Shown one piece after another: positions 19,563 through 33,741 of a stretch of 33,741 bases of DNA. The position numbers and the translations under genes are program-made. The notes beneath the pieces were generated by a model, which was not told the origin of the DNA, made no database searches, and saw only the letters and a list, made by a program, of their open reading frames with translations. This stretch comes from Flavonifractor plautii ATCC 29863 (GTDB taxonomy: Bacteria; Bacillota; Clostridia; Oscillospirales; Oscillospiraceae). The stretch is from positions 1 to 33,741 of the forward strand of contig NZ_JH417851.1 of NCBI RefSeq assembly GCF_000239295.1. The letters run 5' to 3'. Position 1 is the stretch's first letter; every line of letters starts with the position of its first letter.

Positions 19563-19628
19563 CTGTAAATTCCACTCAGAAATTCCTCTGCGCCCTAACA
19601 ATGGCCGTAGGCAACAGAGGACAGGATA

Positions 19629-19680
19629 CCGGTTAAAACAGTCCGTCGAACAGGGTAATCTGACTCGTATCCGGCATGCC
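19629..19680 (-). pseudogene. Perfect duplicate of the polC 3' end
   Basis: These 52 bp are identical to 19808-19859, the last codons of polC with its stop codon (GMPDTSQITLFDGLF, stop, then ACCGG read on the minus strand). The copy lies 179 bp downstream of the real gene end and is cut off from any gene body. The sequence between the two copies is repeat R. Perfect identity suggests a recent event or ongoing conversion. Confidence 0.9.
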
Positions 19681-19807
19681 CCAGGGGCGGCCGCGCCGTC
19701 CCTGGGGTCCCGTTTCCCTCCATCTGGCGGGACGAAATCAATTCGCCCCGCCATCGAGGTTTTGCCTGCGGCAAAACGCTCGGACGCTACAGGCAGCGGA
19801 CGGCATG
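19681..19807 (-). repeat. Repeat R, copy at polC
   Basis: A 127-bp segment between the real polC end and its duplicated tail. Hairpin 1 pairs TGGCGGG (19725-19731) with CCCGCCA (19747-19753). Hairpin 2, GTTTTGCC-TGC-GGCAAAAC (19759-19777), is perfect. Both hairpins and the bases around them match the repeats at 33394-33741. No reading frame in the polC frame crosses it. Confidence 0.8.
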
Positions 19808-19811
19808 CCGG

Positions 19812-22800
19812 TTAAAACAGTCCGTCGAACAGGGTAATCTGACTCGTATCCGGCATGCCGTCCAGAGCACCAGCGGCCTTGAGCTGCTCGATGTGGGTCT
19901 TGGAGACCTTGGGACAGGCTGCGGAAAACTCCTCGATGGATATAAACCGCTTTCCCTCCCGCTGCTCCATGATAGACCAGGCCGCCGTCTCGCCCAGACC
20001 AGGCACAGAGGTGAAGGGGGGCAGCAGGCTTCCCTTCTCATTGTCTGGCAGGAAGTTGACCGCGTGAGAGCGGTAGAGATCCATGTGCTCAAAGGTGAAC
20101 CCCCGCAGATAGAACTCATAGACCACCTCAAGGGTGACCAAAATATCCTCCTCCACGGGAGAGGGCTTCTCCTTGCTCTCAATCTCCCGCATTTTAGCCT
20201 TACACACATCCATCCCCTGGCACATGAAGGTGGCGTCGAAGGCCTTGGCCCGGATGGAGAAGAAGGCGGCGTAGAAGGCCAGGGGGCGGTGGACCTTGAA
20301 CCAGGCGATGCGGAAGGCCATCATGACATAGGCCACCGCGTGGGCCTTGGGGAACAGGTACTTGATCTTCTTGCAGGAGCCGATGTACCAGTCGGGTACG
20401 CCGGCGGCCCTCATCTCCTCCTCCGCCCCATCCGGCAGGCCCCGGCCCTTACGCACCGACTCCATGATCTTGAAGGCCCGCTTCTCCGGCATGCCGCAGG
20501 AGATGAGGAAGAGCATGATGTCGTCGCGGCAGCCGATGGCCTGGCCGACCGGGACGCCCTGATCCACAATCAGATCCCGGGCGTTGCCCAGCCACACGTC
20601 GGTTCCGTGGGAGAAGCCGGACAGGCGCAGGAGGATGTCAAACTCGTGGGGCTGGGTGTCCACCAGCATGCCGCGGGTGAACTTGGTGTTGAACTCCGGG
20701 ATGGCCACGGCGCCGGTTGGGCCCAGGATGGGGTCGTCCACGAAGCCCAGCACCTCAGAGGAGGTGAAGATGCTCATGGTGTCCCGGTCGTCCAGAGGGA
20801 TCTTTTGCGGATCCACCCCGGTGAGATCCTGGAGCATGCGGATCATGGTGGGATCATCGTGGCCCAGCATGTCCAGCTTGAGCAGGTTGGACTCCATGGA
20901 GTGATATTCGAAGTGAGTGGTAATGATGTCGCTGTTGGGATCGTCGGCGGGGTGCTGCACCGGACAGAAGTCGTAGATCTCCCGGTTCTGGGGGATGACC
21001 ACCATGCCGCCGGGGTGCTGGCCGGTGGTGCGCTTGACGCCGGTGCAGCCCTGGGCCAGCCGGTTCTCCTCCGCCCGGTTTACCGTCCTTCCCCGCTCAT
21101 CCATGTACTTCTTGACATAGCCGAAGGCGGTCTTTTCCGCCACGGTGCCGATGGTGCCCGCCCGGAACACGTGGGTCTGCCCGAACAGCTCAAAGGTGTA
21201 CCGGTGGGCGTTGGCCTGATATTCGCCGGAGAAGTTCAGATCGATGTCGGGCACCTTGTCGCCGCCGAAGCCCAGGAAGGTCTCGAAGGGGATGTTGAAG
21301 CCGTCCTTGGCGTAGGGCGTTCCGCAGACGGGGCACACCGCGTCGGGCATGTCCGCGCCGCAGCCGATCCCCTTCTCTTTGGCGGTGTCGAAGTCCGAGT
21401 GCTTGCACTTGGGACAGCGGTAGTGGGGCGGCAGGGAGTTCACCTCCGTGATACCCGACATGAAGGCTACCAGGGACGAGCCCACGGAGCCACGGGAGCC
21501 CACTAGGTAGCCGTGGGCCAGGGAGTCCTGCACCAGCTTCTGGGCCGACATATAAATGACGTCGTACTTGCACTTGATGATGTCGCCCAGCTCGGCATTG
21601 ATGCGGTCCACCACGATTTTGGGCGGTTCCTCACCGTAAAGGGCTTTTGCTTTCCCCCAGACCAGACTGGTCAGCTCCTCCGCTGAGTTCTCGATCTTGG
21701 GGGCGAACAGCCCCTGGGGCAGAGGCACTACGTCCTCACACCAGTCGGCTACCAGATTGGTGTTGCGCACCACCACCTCATAGGCCTTCTCCTTCCCCAA
21801 ATAGGCAAACTCCTCCAGCATCTCGGTGGTGGTCTTGAAGTAGATGGGCAGAGACGAGTCGGCATCTTCAAAGCCCTTGGAGGCCAGCAGGACGTGGCGG
21901 TAGATCTCGTCCTCCGGGTCCAGGAAATGGACGTCGCCGGTGGCGCACACAGGCTTGTCCAGCGCCTCGCCCAGGGATACGATGGTGCGGTTGAAGTCCT
22001 TCAGCTCCTCCTGGCTCTGCACCATACCCTTGCGCAGCATGAAGGCATTGTTGCACAGAGGCTGAATCTCCAGGAAATCGTACCAGGAGGCAATGCGCTT
22101 AAGCTCCGCAAAGTCTTTCCGCTTTACAACTGCTTGAAACAGCTCTCCAGCCTCGCAGGCCGAGCCGATAATGAGTCCCTCCCGGTGCTGGTTGATCAGG
22201 CTCTTGGGCATGATGGGGTAGCGTTTGAAGTGGTCCAGGTGAGAGGCCGAGATGAGCTTGTAGAGATTGCGTAGGCCCAGTTGGTTCTTGGCCAGCACGA
22301 TTAGGTGCTTGGGCTGGCGGCGGGCCTTGCCCCCGGTACGCAGCCTGGCCATAGCCGGATTGATCTGCTGGAGGGTATGTACACCCCTGTCCCGCAGCAT
22401 CTCAAAGAAAGGTACCAGCATATAGCCCACCGTGGCCGCGTCGTCATAGGCCCGGTGGTGGTTGAAGGCAGGCAGATTCAGGTGCTCCGCCACGATGTCC
22501 AACTTGTGCTTGCCCAGCTCCGGCAGCAGGTTCTGGGCCAGAATCAGCGTGTCGATGGAGGTGCTGTCGAAGGGGCGGCCCATGCGGCGGCACCCCTCGG
22601 CGATGAAGCCCATGTCGAACTCCGCATTGTGGGCGGCCAGCGGGCGCTCCCCCACAAAGTCCAGAAAGGCATTTATGGCCTCCGCCTGGGAGGGGGCTCC
22701 CCTCAGCATCTCGTCGGTAATGCCGGTAAGCTCGGTGATCTCGCGGGTCAGAGGCCGTTCAGGATCAGCAAACGTGGAGAACTGCTCCACCACCTCCCCG

Positions 22801-23972
22801 TTCCGCAGTACCACCGCTCCGATCTCGGTGATTACATCCCGCCGCTTGTCCAGACCGGTAGTCTCAATGTCGAAACAGACGATATCGCCTGTAAAGTCTT
22901 GTTCCTTGTCCCCGTGTACCACCACCCGGTCGTCTACGTCGTTAATGAAGTACGCCTCCACGCCGTAAAGCACCTTGATCTTCTTGGCCGAGTGCCAGGC
23001 ATCGGGGAATGCCTGGGCCACGCCGTGGTCGGTGATGGCGATGGCCCGATGGCCCCACGCTTCCGCCCGCTTGACCACGTTCTTGTCCGGCCCCGCCTTG
23101 GGGCTCACTTGGGTGAGGGCATCCATGGAGGACATGGTGGTGTGCAAGTGGAGCTCCACCCGCTTCTCCGGCGCGTCGTCGGTCTTCATGGGCTTGGCGC
23201 TCTCCATGATGGCGTAGGGCTCCAGCACCATGTCGCCAGTGAAGCGGTCGATGTTCAGCTTGCCCTGGATCACCAGATGCTGGCCCTTCTTCACCCCGTC
23301 CACAATGCCCTTCCCCTCGTCACCGGGGAAAAACTTGGACACCCGCACCGAGCCGGTATAGTCCGTCACATCGAAGCACACCACCCATGCGCCCCGCTTT
23401 TTCAGCTCCCGGTGATCCACGGCAAACACGTCTCCCTTGACGATGACGGTTCCCATGTCCAGCTCCAGGGTGCTCATGGGGATGCTCTCCCGCTTGATTT
23501 CGTGCTTGCCGTAGAGTAGCTTTCCTCTCGGGCCGCCGGAGGCCGCCTTTTTCTCCCGCGGGCTGGCAGTTTTGAGACCAGCCAGAGCTCTCCGGCGGAT
23601 CTCCTCCGTGCGGCGGAAGGCCGCCATGGCATCCTCCTCCACCGGGGCGGCCGGGGGCGGAGGAGGAGGGGCGCTGGCCGCAGGAGCCGGTTCAGCCGCC
23701 ACAGGAGCCGATGTGGGAGCAGTCGCGGCCGCCGCTCCCATCTCCAGCTCCACCCGCTCCACCCGGTAGGCCAAGGCCAGGCTCTTCTCGATCTGGTGCC
23801 GCAGGCCCTCCTCGGGCATTCGAGGGCACTCCACCTTGGCGCGGATAGAGCGGGCCGCCTTATCGATCACCGCCCCCGTGACCAGATAGCCGCCTGCCAG
23901 GGCCGCCAGCTCTTCACCGGGCCGCCAGGCGGAAAACAAATTCAAAAAGGGAATCTTCTGTGCCTGTGACAT
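19812..23972 (-). CDS. polC: DNA polymerase III alpha subunit, PolC type
   Basis: A 1386-residue replicative polymerase of the Gram-positive kind. An N-terminal domain and an Ala/Pro-rich linker (about 80-112) precede the OB fold (about 172-255). PHP residues (VELHLHTTMSS, 272-282; ITDHG, 313-317) follow, split by the DEDDh proofreading exonuclease: D368/E370 in CFDIETTGL, D453 in HNAEFDMGF, and HHRAYDDAA at about 505-513. Then come a zinc knuckle (CPKCKHSDFD ... CPVCGTPY) and the active-site motif VPDIDLNFSGEYQ. ATG at 23972 was chosen over one 13 codons upstream because the latter overlaps ispG. It is the last gene of the long operon. Its final 15 codons and stop are duplicated downstream beyond repeat R. 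Confidence 0.95.
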   Translation of the reverse strand: MSQAQKIPFLNLFSAWRPGEELAALAGGYLVTGAVIDKAARSIRAKVECPRMPEEGLRHQIEKSLALAYRVERVELEMGAAAATAPTSAPVAAEPAPAASAPPPPPPAAPVEEDAMAAFRRTEEIRRRALAGLKTASPREKKAASGGPRGKLLYGKHEIKRESIPMSTLELDMGTVIVKGDVFAVDHRELKKRGAWVVCFDVTDYTGSVRVSKFFPGDEGKGIVDGVKKGQHLVIQGKLNIDRFTGDMVLEPYAIMESAKPMKTDDAPEKRVELHLHTTMSSMDALTQVSPKAGPDKNVVKRAEAWGHRAIAITDHGVAQAFPDAWHSAKKIKVLYGVEAYFINDVDDRVVVHGDKEQDFTGDIVCFDIETTGLDKRRDVITEIGAVVLRNGEVVEQFSTFADPERPLTREITELTGITDEMLRGAPSQAEAINAFLDFVGERPLAAHNAEFDMGFIAEGCRRMGRPFDSTSIDTLILAQNLLPELGKHKLDIVAEHLNLPAFNHHRAYDDAATVGYMLVPFFEMLRDRGVHTLQQINPAMARLRTGGKARRQPKHLIVLAKNQLGLRNLYKLISASHLDHFKRYPIMPKSLINQHREGLIIGSACEAGELFQAVVKRKDFAELKRIASWYDFLEIQPLCNNAFMLRKGMVQSQEELKDFNRTIVSLGEALDKPVCATGDVHFLDPEDEIYRHVLLASKGFEDADSSLPIYFKTTTEMLEEFAYLGKEKAYEVVVRNTNLVADWCEDVVPLPQGLFAPKIENSAEELTSLVWGKAKALYGEEPPKIVVDRINAELGDIIKCKYDVIYMSAQKLVQDSLAHGYLVGSRGSVGSSLVAFMSGITEVNSLPPHYRCPKCKHSDFDTAKEKGIGCGADMPDAVCPVCGTPYAKDGFNIPFETFLGFGGDKVPDIDLNFSGEYQANAHRYTFELFGQTHVFRAGTIGTVAEKTAFGYVKKYMDERGRTVNRAEENRLAQGCTGVKRTTGQHPGGMVVIPQNREIYDFCPVQHPADDPNSDIITTHFEYHSMESNLLKLDMLGHDDPTMIRMLQDLTGVDPQKIPLDDRDTMSIFTSSEVLGFVDDPILGPTGAVAIPEFNTKFTRGMLVDTQPHEFDILLRLSGFSHGTDVWLGNARDLIVDQGVPVGQAIGCRDDIMLFLISCGMPEKRAFKIMESVRKGRGLPDGAEEEMRAAGVPDWYIGSCKKIKYLFPKAHAVAYVMMAFRIAWFKVHRPLAFYAAFFSIRAKAFDATFMCQGMDVCKAKMREIESKEKPSPVEEDILVTLEVVYEFYLRGFTFEHMDLYRSHAVNFLPDNEKGSLLPPFTSVPGLGETAAWSIMEQREGKRFISIEEFSAACPKVSKTHIEQLKAAGALDGMPDTSQITLFDGLF

Positions 23973-23997
23973 GGTTGAAACGCTCCTGCCTCCTCCG

Positions 23998-25035
23998 TCA
24001 AAGTTCCTCAATTAGTGCGAAAAGCTCGTCCACCAGGGCCTCCTGGGGAACCTTTTTCACGATCTCTCCCTTGCGGAAGAGCAGGCCCTCCCCGTTGCCG
24101 CCGGCGATGCCCACGTCGGCGGCGGAGGCCTCTCCGGGGCCGTTGACCACACAGCCCATGACCGCCACGGTGATGGGCTTGTCCACGGCCTTAAGCCGCT
24201 CCTCCACCTGGGTGGCCAGGCCGATGAGGTCGATACGGGTGCGCCCGCAGGTAGGGCAGGACACCAGCTCCGGTCCCTCCTTCCGCACCCCGGCGGCCTT
24301 GAGGATGTCCCGGGCGGCGTATACCTCCTCCACCGGATCGGCGGAGAGAGAGACCCGCATGGTGTCCCCGATACCCATGGCCAGCAAGCCGCCGATGCCC
24401 ACCGCGGATTTGAGGGTGCCCATGCGCAGGGTGCCGGTCTCCGTCACCCCAAGATGTAAAGGATAATCACTTTCCCGATTCATCAGGCGGTAGGCCGCCA
24501 TGGTGGTGCGCACGCTGGAGGACTTGAGGGACACGCATATGTCGGTAAAGTCAAATTTCTCCAGCAGGCGGATATGTCCAAAGGCCGACTCCACCAGGGC
24601 CTCCGGCGTCACCCCGCCGTATTTGGCCAGGATGGGCTTCTCCAGGGAGCCGCCGTTGACTCCGATACGGATGGGAATCCCCTTTTGGCGGCAGGCGTCG
24701 GCCACCGCCTTCACCCGGTCCTCCCCGCCGATGTTGCCCGGATTGATGCGCACTTTGTCGCACCCGGCGGCCACGCACTCCAGGGCCAGCCGGTAATCGA
24801 AATGGATGTCCGCCACCAGAGGGATGGGGCTCCGCTCCCGAATGGCCCCCACCGCCCGGGCGGCGGCCAGATCGGGCACCGCCACCCGCACAATCTCGCA
24901 CCCCGCCGCCGCCAGACGTTTGATCTGCTCCGCTGTGGCGGACACATCGTCGGTGCGGGTGTTGGTCATGGACTGAATGGTGACCGGAGCACCCCCCCCG
25001 ATGGGGACGCCGCCCACGCGAATCTGTCTGGTCAT
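23998..25035 (-). CDS. ispG: 4-hydroxy-3-methylbut-2-enyl diphosphate synthase (flavodoxin/ferredoxin)
   Basis: A 345-residue enzyme of the MEP isoprenoid pathway. It converts methylerythritol cyclodiphosphate to HMBPP with a [4Fe-4S] cluster. The N-terminal TIM barrel has [13 protein letters not shown] and [12 protein letters not shown]. The cluster-binding part near the C-terminus has [11 protein letters not shown] and [12 protein letters not shown]. It has the short bacterial form with no inserted domain. GGAGG precedes the ATG, 13 bp after the rseP stop. The gene dxr of the same pathway lies two genes upstream, so the operon supplies isoprenoid precursors for UppS. The flavodoxin/ferredoxin protein elsewhere in the window could be a reductant, but this is speculation. 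Confidence 0.95.
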
Positions 25036-33202: not shown

Positions 33203-33303
33203 GATTGTTGTCCTCCGTTTCCATTTTATAATGTAGTACTTAGTATAGCACGTCCCCCGCGTCAAGCACAATCCCCCTGCACCAAACAGAACCCGCTGTC
33301 ACG
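33203..33303. other. Short spacer between the reductase gene and the repeat array
   Basis: AT-rich near 33220-33250, with TACTAAGTA and TATACT on the minus strand that may belong to the flavin reductase promoter. Nothing else is recognisable before the repeat array begins at 33304. Confidence 0.5.
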
Positions 33304-33307
33304 GAAA

Positions 33308-33334
33308 AGCGCCGGACACTGAGTGTCCGGCGCT
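33308..33334 (-). terminator. Terminator copy 1 downstream of the tsf tail
   Basis: A palindrome with 13-bp arms, AGCGCCGGACACT-G-AGTGTCCGGCGCT, is followed by a T4 tract on the minus strand. It is repeated at 33552-33578 with the central base flipped to C. Confidence 0.85.
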
Positions 33335-33351
33335 CGAAGCCAATCTGCAGT

Positions 33352-33393
33352 TTACTTGCCCAGCTGCTTGGCGATCTCTTCGGCGAAGTTCCG
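33352..33393 (-). pseudogene. 3'-end fragment of tsf (EF-Ts), copy 1
   Basis: Read on the minus strand this encodes RNFAEEIAKQLGK and a stop. NFAEE followed by a short basic end is the C-terminus of elongation factor Ts. In Firmicutes tsf lies just upstream of pyrH, which fits this position. No EF-Ts body precedes it: the frame continues into repeat R. Confidence 0.7.
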
Positions 33394-33547
33394 CCCCCCC
33401 CGGCTTGCCGGGCGGGGATCCCCGATTTTCATTCGATTGGGGCGGAATGAATCCGCCCCAATCCAAGGCTTTGCCTCCGGCAAAACGCTTGTACGCGCCA
33501 TGCGGCGCGGCCCGCCGGAGGCGGGCGCAGGAGAACGCGCAGGCATG
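33394..33547 (-). repeat. Repeat R, copy 1 at tsf
   Basis: Contains hairpin 1 (GATTGGGGCGGA, 33435-33446, with TCCGCCCCAATC, 33452-33463; 12 bp perfect), hairpin 2 (TTTGCC-TCC-GGCAAA, 33470-33484) and further GC palindromes. Read on the minus strand, it is open in the frame of the tsf tail from an ATG at 33546 (64 codons in total), but no ribosome binding site is evident. Confidence 0.85.
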
Positions 33548-33551
33548 GAAA

Positions 33552-33578
33552 AGCGCCGGACACTCAGTGTCCGGCGCT
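33552..33578 (-). terminator. Terminator copy 2 downstream of the tsf tail
   Basis: Same 13-bp-arm palindrome as at 33308-33334, with the central base C instead of G. Confidence 0.85.
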
Positions 33579-33595
33579 CGAAGACAATCTGTGGT

Positions 33596-33637
33596 TTACT
33601 TGCCCAGCTGCTTAGCGATCTCTTCGGCGAAGTTCCG
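33596..33637 (-). pseudogene. 3'-end fragment of tsf (EF-Ts), copy 2
   Basis: Encodes the same RNFAEEIAKQLGK and stop as copy 1. The only difference is one synonymous base (GCT for GCC, alanine). It too is joined upstream to repeat R, not to an EF-Ts body. The intact tsf is expected to the right of the window. Confidence 0.7.
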
Positions 33638-33741
33638 CCCCACCCGGCAAGCCGGGCGGGGAGCCCCGATTTTCATTCGATTGGGGCGAAATGAATCCGC
33701 CCCAATCCAAGGTTTTGCCTCCGGCAAAACGCTTGTACGCG
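33638..33741 (-). repeat. Repeat R, copy 2 at tsf (cut by window end)
   Basis: Matches copy 1 base for base in length up to the window edge. Both hairpins are kept. On the minus strand the frame of the tsf tail is open to the edge. Confidence 0.8.

Follow-up and report, generated by a model that had tools for sequence, protein, structure and literature searches.

The window analysed here is the whole stretch of 33,741 nucleotides at positions 1-33,741 of contig NZ_JH417851.1 from Flavonifractor plautii ATCC 29863. It carries copies of a short repeat, R, at the ends of two genes, polC and tsf, both loci lying on the minus strand. At polC (19812..24011 in the open reading frame list; PolC-type DNA polymerase III by NCBIfam NF001688, 1637.7 bits) the gene reads into tail1, its last 48 nt (19859-19812, stop codon 19814-19812). 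The insertion point lies between 19860 and 19859. The gene sequence across it, X (GGACGGCATGCCGG, 19850..19863), is a 14-nt perfect complement of a segment here called X' (CCGGCATGCCGTCC, 19798..19811), which stands immediately 3' of the stop codon and is separated from X by a 38-nt loop. R itself occupies 19679..19800 (covariance model score 91 bits, E 1.2e-16), its 5' bases overlapping X', and three hairpins can be read from its sequence (hairpin 1, 19782-19755; hairpin 2, 19752-19726; hairpin 3, 19707-19679). A second gene end, tail2, follows at 19615..19680; it matches 19859-19794 at 94% over 66 nt and has a decayed X' after its stop codon. Folded as DNA, the polC unit gives z = -7.0 with X paired to X'. 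The layout is gap-free here and recurs in the complete genome AP018533.1 (L368). Several R repeats in draft assemblies do contain gaps of 10 N (L004, L006, L013), as an assembly artefact at repeats would predict, but gap-free copies occur here, in isolates such as Flavonifractor sp. An10 and in one complete genome. An artefact is refuted for the gap-free loci, and its overall probability is negligible.

At the right edge of the window tsf has two tandem units of polC-like layout. The R nearest the gene lies at 33638..33741 and continues to contig position 33753 (98.6 bits with the covariance model). Beyond it, at 33532..33637, is a copy of the tsf end with its stop codon (33598-33596) and terminator, belonging to a 210-nt direct repeat, D1 (93%), and then X' (GTTCTCCTGC, 33527..33536). 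By eye, GCAGGAGAAC in the body of tsf beyond the window (L167) is its reverse complement; at 10 nt this X' is under the score used for counting. The second unit has its R at 33394..33509 (104.7 bits, same model), followed by the last copy of the tsf end with stop codon (33354-33352) and terminator (33288..33393), again within D1. The names tsf, hyd and serC were assigned by eye, tsf following the first-pass annotation of the window. That annotation took CATGCC as the shared start of R, which is a coincidence: at polC the hexamer belongs to X', as the reverse complement of polC's GGCATGCC, and in tsf it sits between the terminator and X'. Whole units of gene end, X' and R stand two or three in tandem at single genes both here (window 33288-33741) and elsewhere (G017:C1:190666-191203; G017:C9:96012-96524; G000:C174).

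The same annotation had proposed that the polC and tsf copies form one family beyond chance, and this holds. Further genomic copies were found with blastn, and a covariance model of 118 positions, seeded by an alignment of 19 copies from this genome, detects 63 copies at E<0.001 and 67 at E<=1. The search that it had suggested, of the genome and its relatives with a model of R, returned many copies with tails, and neither a random scatter without tails nor only the copies already seen. The 40 related genomes searched include 20 of the genus (the Flavonifractor / Pseudoflavonifractor group, going by the named records), and every one of these possesses R, with 9-63 copies each; these are lower bounds, as scoring was limited to the best first-look candidates. 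In the covariance model search no R was detected in five genomes of other genera of the family. Of the 15 genomes from other families, G030 has 85-90 diverged copies and G035 one weak match.

R is without an apparent reading frame of its own and occurs at numerous unrelated conserved genes, again as first described. By NCBIfam its hosts include polC, alaS, mutL, lepA (start), uvrC (start), uvrA, an nfo-like gene, rnhA and rnc, with a caveat that all except polC are gene pieces, most of which score under the full-length cut-off. A number of these hosts (polC, uvrA, uvrC, mutL, nfo-like, rnhA) function in DNA repair or replication. Simple tandem duplication was rejected as an origin, the same hairpins being present at unrelated genes. 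Within the tests made, a phage origin was rejected: viral contigs gave 0 matches to one exact variant of the core, and the polC R had no match among 50,697 phage records.

Three further observations concern the surroundings of the family. G030, a genome of 1.9 Mb that belongs to a different family, contains about 90 diverged copies of R (L109, L221-L249). R-like hairpins are present on a conjugative plasmid of Pusillibacter faecalis, pMM59_01 (L476, NZ_AP023421.1:5052-5112), and on a second large plasmid record from a related genus, Vescimonas fastidiosa pMM35_01 (L477); such plasmids are a possible vehicle for R. A separate short palindromic repeat, of the GTAGGGGC... / ...GCCCCTAC type, is found just past tail2 in L089, L074 and L079, and it looks like a distinct REP-like family.

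The second gene end is a regular part of the layout. When the DNA after R was aligned with the DNA before it, 135/153 copies scored >=20 versus 18/456 swapped pairings, so the duplication of the tail is beyond chance, as had been claimed; most of the 153 are from G000, G015, G017 and G004, with one or two best copies from each of the other genus genomes. The second copy begins -4 to +8 nt from the 3' end of R in 128/152 copies. Among loci taken from named genomes with one exact pattern the duplication is present in 35 of 39 testable cases, and 3 more of the 42 lie at contig edges. The duplicated stretches range from tens to over 100 nt, and the stop codon is not their boundary, because the tsf piece duplicated in G018 includes the terminator. 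By an open-frame rule, which may misassign classes and codon frames in GC-rich DNA, 97 of 125 copies duplicate the 3' end of the gene left of R, 17 duplicate the start of the left-hand gene (with R antisense) and 11 neither, while 2 more were too short. The first-pass annotation had R always at 3' ends, which the 17 gene starts contradict; those of lepA and uvrC are confirmed by NCBIfam. Its proposal that the spare end keeps the host gene whole agrees with the layout.

X', which the first-pass annotation missed, is the most informative part of the unit. It is a segment of about 10-19 nt that follows the first gene end and precedes the hairpins, and it is the reverse complement of the gene sequence across the insertion point. 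The ungapped X:X' score is >=12 in 71/127 testable copies, in 0/632 swapped pairs and in 0/127 neighbouring gene segments. At a score of >=9 the count rises to 98/127, with 4.4% in the swapped and 4.7% in the neighbouring controls; in the remaining 29/127 (score <9) X' is absent, decayed or masked by tandem copies. In 37/79 strong cases X' ends 5-6 nt upstream of the junction, and in 67/79 it extends 6-13 nt past it. The insertion sites themselves (111 sites) prefer G at -2 (0.65), A at -1 (0.40), G at +1 (0.68) and G at +2 (0.55). The idea that X' starts at the stop codon by design was dropped, since tsf of G018 and the gene-start cases differ. From X' the unit passes to hairpin 1 either directly or past one or two extra hairpins, with gaps near 2, near 20 or 29-39 nt. 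In many copies (L204, L216, L255, L264) an extra GGGGCCCC hairpin that resembles hairpin 3 stands between X' and the next hairpin, as if the left and right ends of R were built from a common module.

The distance between X and X' falls into discrete classes. Because the 127 X' loci include several orthologues and tandem units, loops were counted per gene group. In 55 automatic groups the loop is 66-74 nt in 33, 33-39 nt in 8 (five at 35), 50-56 nt in 3, 93-99 nt in 5 and elsewhere in 6; one group at 158 nt was left out of this count, and at least 2 of the 56 automatic groups merge different genes. A smoothed null reproduced the clustering in 0/2000 trials. No period of 17.5 nt is claimed, as the 93-99 group misfits its multiples. 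The loop is the fixed quantity, because the distance from the junction is less sharp. The single-stranded DNA-binding protein (SSB) of E. coli is described, in the part of the source cited, as binding about 35, 55 or 65 nt per tetramer (PMC4652220). The resemblance of the loop sizes to these site sizes is suggestive, the protein compared being that of E. coli and not of the host.

The stems of R are conserved in a way that suggests DNA. In 109 distinct rows of the alignment 99.4% of stem cells are paired, versus 34-54% in slid controls; the alignment was fitted to the model, which inflates the absolute figure. Changes on both sides are seen in 24/29 stem pairs, and 0/500 shuffles reach any of five measures. 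Outside one column, G-T pairs make up 28/3002 stem cells, though 529 cells have double changes, and the mismatches between X and X' are not enriched in G-T either (25/178, random 2 in 12). Functional RNAs usually use far more G-U pairs. As the stems covary almost perfectly yet avoid the G-T wobble, the sequences point to R acting as folded DNA and not as RNA. An unpaired base in hairpin 1 is kept in 108/109 rows and a G-T pair in hairpin 3 in 63/108, which together give the hairpins a direction. Single-strand DNA enzymes are known to discriminate strands by such asymmetric marks. These copies establish R as a real, genus-wide family with a defined layout, X' and stem conservation.

Two of the rival explanations would make R an RNA. 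A known RNA family was ruled out by the 0 Rfam matches at gathering score in the window and four loci (44,744 bases). In RNA-guided homing X' and R would form a guide RNA, guide 5' and scaffold 3', for a nuclease encoded elsewhere. X' does span the cut and stands 5' of a structured body, which is the order of 5'-guide RNAs; IscB is a case of a guide RNA with a 5' guide. The rarity of G-T in the stems, its lack of enrichment in X:X' mismatches and the empty Rfam search nevertheless make this improbable; in addition the quantised loop would have no role, and X survives insertion and would be recut. Slightly less credible still is R as a cis-regulatory RNA or terminator retained for the benefit of each gene. 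This would be compatible with X and X' changing together between species at polC and hyd, but R occurs in both orientations to genes and is patchy between close species, and the second gene end would be left unexplained. R as an intrinsic terminator was rejected, as tsf retains its own.

The history of individual sites adds a different kind of evidence. R sites are shared patchily between species: polC is occupied, by reading, in 7/20 genomes (G000, G003, G004, G007, G013, G015, G019), hyd in 8/13 and rnhA in 5/20. A loose pattern had also flagged polC of G014 and G001, which on reading proved false, and uvrA of G015, which stays a candidate. X and X' of polC co-vary between species (GGCCTGCC/GGCAGGCC, GGCATGCC/GGCATGCC, GGTATGCC/GGCATACC). 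At hyd five species have one X' mismatch in common, and X' thus travels together with R. At polC of G008 (L146) and G016 (L153) X' is present without R, so R can evidently vanish while the reversed target copy stays. The polC loci have a copy of X' after tail2, decayed in most, and at hyd of G007 tail2 runs into downstream sequence shared with the empty site of G016. Direct repeats flanking palindromes are unstable in bacteria, and the persistence of R therefore needs re-insertion or selection.

In 106 clear-frame loci tail1 and tail2 differ at 80/1976 first, 54/1986 second and 256/2022 third codon positions, and in 11/127 loci there is an indel between them. A freely decaying untranslated tail2 would be expected to give second-position differences about half of those at the third. 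The differences are mainly third-position though one of the tails should be untranslated, which suggests that the tails largely diverged as working alleles. At L116 X' is still perfect (18/18) while the tails match in 71/93 positions. In 12 diverged loci from 8 genes the better match to the nearest R-free relative is tail2 in 6 and tail1 in 2, with 4 ties or splits; these loci were chosen mostly for diverged tails, and a thirteenth, L036, with tails that could not be aligned, was dropped. The pattern is plainest at uvrA of G001, where tail2 is like R-free G014 and G009 (0.90, 0.89) and tail1 like the tail1 of R-bearing G000, G017 and G019 (0.85-0.87). Foreign tails are thus supported at some loci, not proven as a rule. 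Across 71 orthologous pairs the between-species divergence of tail1 and tail2 is about equal. The uvrA copies of R in G000 and G017 do not differ, while the tail2 sequences are 87% identical. The nearest relative of a copy (n=146) is at the same gene elsewhere in 26 cases, in a tandem unit in 23 and at another gene in 97.

Our favoured explanation, with a probability of about 45%, is that R belongs to an element of single-stranded DNA that behaves much like a homing element, steered by a DNA guide and bringing a replacement for the gene end. In its favour are the duplication at the 3' end of R, the X:X' complementarity, the loop clusters, the covarying stems with their few G-T pairs and their direction, the patchy reuse of sites, the third-position differences between tails, the loci where tail2 is nearer the R-free relative, uvrA of G001 above all, and the likenesses to IS608 and to fungal mobile ORFs described below. 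Most copies lie at a junction u|d near a gene end, and it is this junction that X' reverse-complements. The reading frame of the gene continues into the spare end, and the second copy of the end lies downstream. The mobile unit would be the spare gene end, X' and the hairpins, a non-coding unit of which R is the hairpin part, and it would act as folded single-stranded DNA with the hairpins as the recognition body. X', at the 5' foot of the hairpins, would serve as a DNA guide that pairs with the target sequence surrounding the cut, in the manner of the 4-nt guide of IS608. At 10-19 nt rather than 4 nt such a guide would be gene-specific, so in another cell the unit would reach the matching site of the corresponding gene, bringing along the donor's gene end. 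Excision by u|d and hairpin|d would restore the resident gene end, and the strand of a 35/53/70-nt loop may be wrapped on one SSB tetramer. This scheme accounts neither for the enzyme nor for the first capture of a new gene. A more specific form is programmable DNA-guided homing, in which the 10-19 nt X' targets a single-stranded unit to a single gene site, the replacement end keeps the gene intact at insertion and excision, and the distance is set by SSB wrapping (about 35, 53 and 70 nt for two, three and four subunits). We regard this full form as unlikely.

Several observations weigh against homing. X remains intact after insertion and nothing was seen that bars a second hit. Gene-end duplication was found in 1/29 copies examined in G030 (L245; L248 scores through a neighbouring element), where R may insert without bringing spare ends. 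Tail1 is closer than tail2 in 14/18 relatives for uvrA of G000, in 5/6 for L284 (one tie) and in 12/15 for rnhA of G019, where tail2 is closer in 2 and the nearest, G017, is a tie. Copies at different genes of one genome are at most 96.5% identical (146 compared), so R is either not entering further genes at present or changing fast. At 20/106 loci the tails have no mismatch, which plain duplication explains equally well.

The main rival to homing is insertion with a very long target duplication. A staggered break, with cuts about 50-110 nt apart, would be filled in and so duplicate the gene end, and the SSB-wrapped overhang would fold back and copy X'; the elements would then descend vertically, and recombination between the tails would hold these alike. 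The identical coding tails just mentioned suit it, as do a loop that is sharper than the junction distance, the X' ends at 5-6 nt upstream of the junction and orthologous R copies that are on average more alike than random ones. It fits poorly with the third-position excess between tails, with tail2 being nearer the native relative in 6/12 diverged loci, with an X' still perfect at L116 where the tails are old and with the X' mismatch common to five species at hyd. We consider it rather unlikely.

The first-pass annotation also expected an associated reverse transcriptase or recombinase, and none was found; the searches covered RVT_1 and Y1_Tnp and no other recombinases. RVT_1 was detected in 7/20 genus genomes and not in R-bearing G006, G012 and G030. 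Y1_Tnp (PF01797, 1e-5) was likewise detected in 7/20, and not in R-bearing G000, G012, G014, G018 and G030. Both negatives count against homing as well. With each at 7/20 and neither in G030, the agent of R is probably some other factor or a host protein, or has been lost in places. A Y1 transposase in trans and a diversity-generating retroelement (DGR) or other RT-borne retro-element were both rejected as universal agents on these grounds. Copying in the manner of a retro-element, in which an RT-primed R copy is joined to a copy of the messenger's end, would yield the R|d junction and an RNA-derived tail, and DGR loci likewise show a gene end, a hairpin and a second copy. It is very improbable in view of the R-bearing genomes in which RVT_1 was not found, the avoidance of G-U in the stems and the third-position tail differences, which, judged by codon position, are not the adenine-directed pattern of DGRs.

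If the homing explanation is true, bacteria possess a class of very small homing elements that can do without an encoded gene and live in core genes without breaking them. Finding the site by DNA-DNA pairing would be a new principle of target choice. Gene ends would have a hidden path from one species to another, and guide-programmed insertion that leaves no scar might be built on such elements. Whatever its mechanism, R provides dense and easily scored markers for an unknown process that affects core genes.

At the level of titles and abstracts in the literature searched, no described family of this behaviour was found, in line with the first-pass annotation, and on that basis the R family is undescribed. 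Integron attC sites act as folded single-strand DNA with conserved unpaired bases, and R also has a conserved unpaired base. R has no gene cassettes, and X' and the spare ends have no attC counterpart. DGR loci present a gene end, a hairpin and a second gene-end copy downstream, whereas the hosts of R are housekeeping genes, its tails differ at third positions and RT is not universal. For the repetitive extragenic palindromes (REPs) we know of none with a gene-end duplication or an X'-like complement. In the cited parts of the sources REP elements are 20-40 bp (PMC8266576, PMC3733652, PMC2817692), and REP / bacterial interspersed mosaic elements (BIMEs) with TnpA-REP resemble R in having many small palindromic non-coding copies per genome. 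Miniature inverted-repeat transposable elements (MITEs) are, in the sources cited, likewise small, non-coding and dispersed (PMC10969869, PMC2229807). MITEs have terminal inverted repeats and short target duplications. R lacks such repeats, its stems being internal hairpins with none pairing its two ends, and it comes with a duplication of tens to over 100 nt that has an inverted complement at one end.

Two further systems inform the proposed mechanism. In IS608, of the IS200/IS605 family, the cleavage site pairs with a 4-nt guide that sits at a hairpin's 5' base, according to the part of the source cited (PMC5934647). The order X, tail, X', hairpins | d is the left-end order of such elements, which also insert without breaking the rest of the site (same excerpt), and a guide at the hairpin foot that pairs with the site is what X' provides (strongly in 71/127 copies). 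The differences are the guide length (4 nt versus 10-19 nt), the gene end, which IS608 as described there does not bring (PMC5934647), and the transposase, which R lacks, Y1_Tnp not being found in several R-bearing genomes. The mobile ORFs of fungal mitochondria (Glomus atp6, atp9, cox2 and nad3; Allomyces atp6) insert a foreign C-terminus and displace the native one downstream, as the cited part of PMC3630166 describes. Their order of gene core, inserted end, element and native end would be that of R if tail1 is the new end and tail2 the native one, and their inserted end differs mostly silently (PMC3630166, same part). They encode a homing endonuclease and are reported there for few genes (PMC3630166); R at about 120 nt has no room for a site-specific endonuclease, and a nuclease in trans was not searched. 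Compared with these fungal elements R is non-coding, about 120 nt long and present at dozens of genes per genome, and it carries X' and hairpins.
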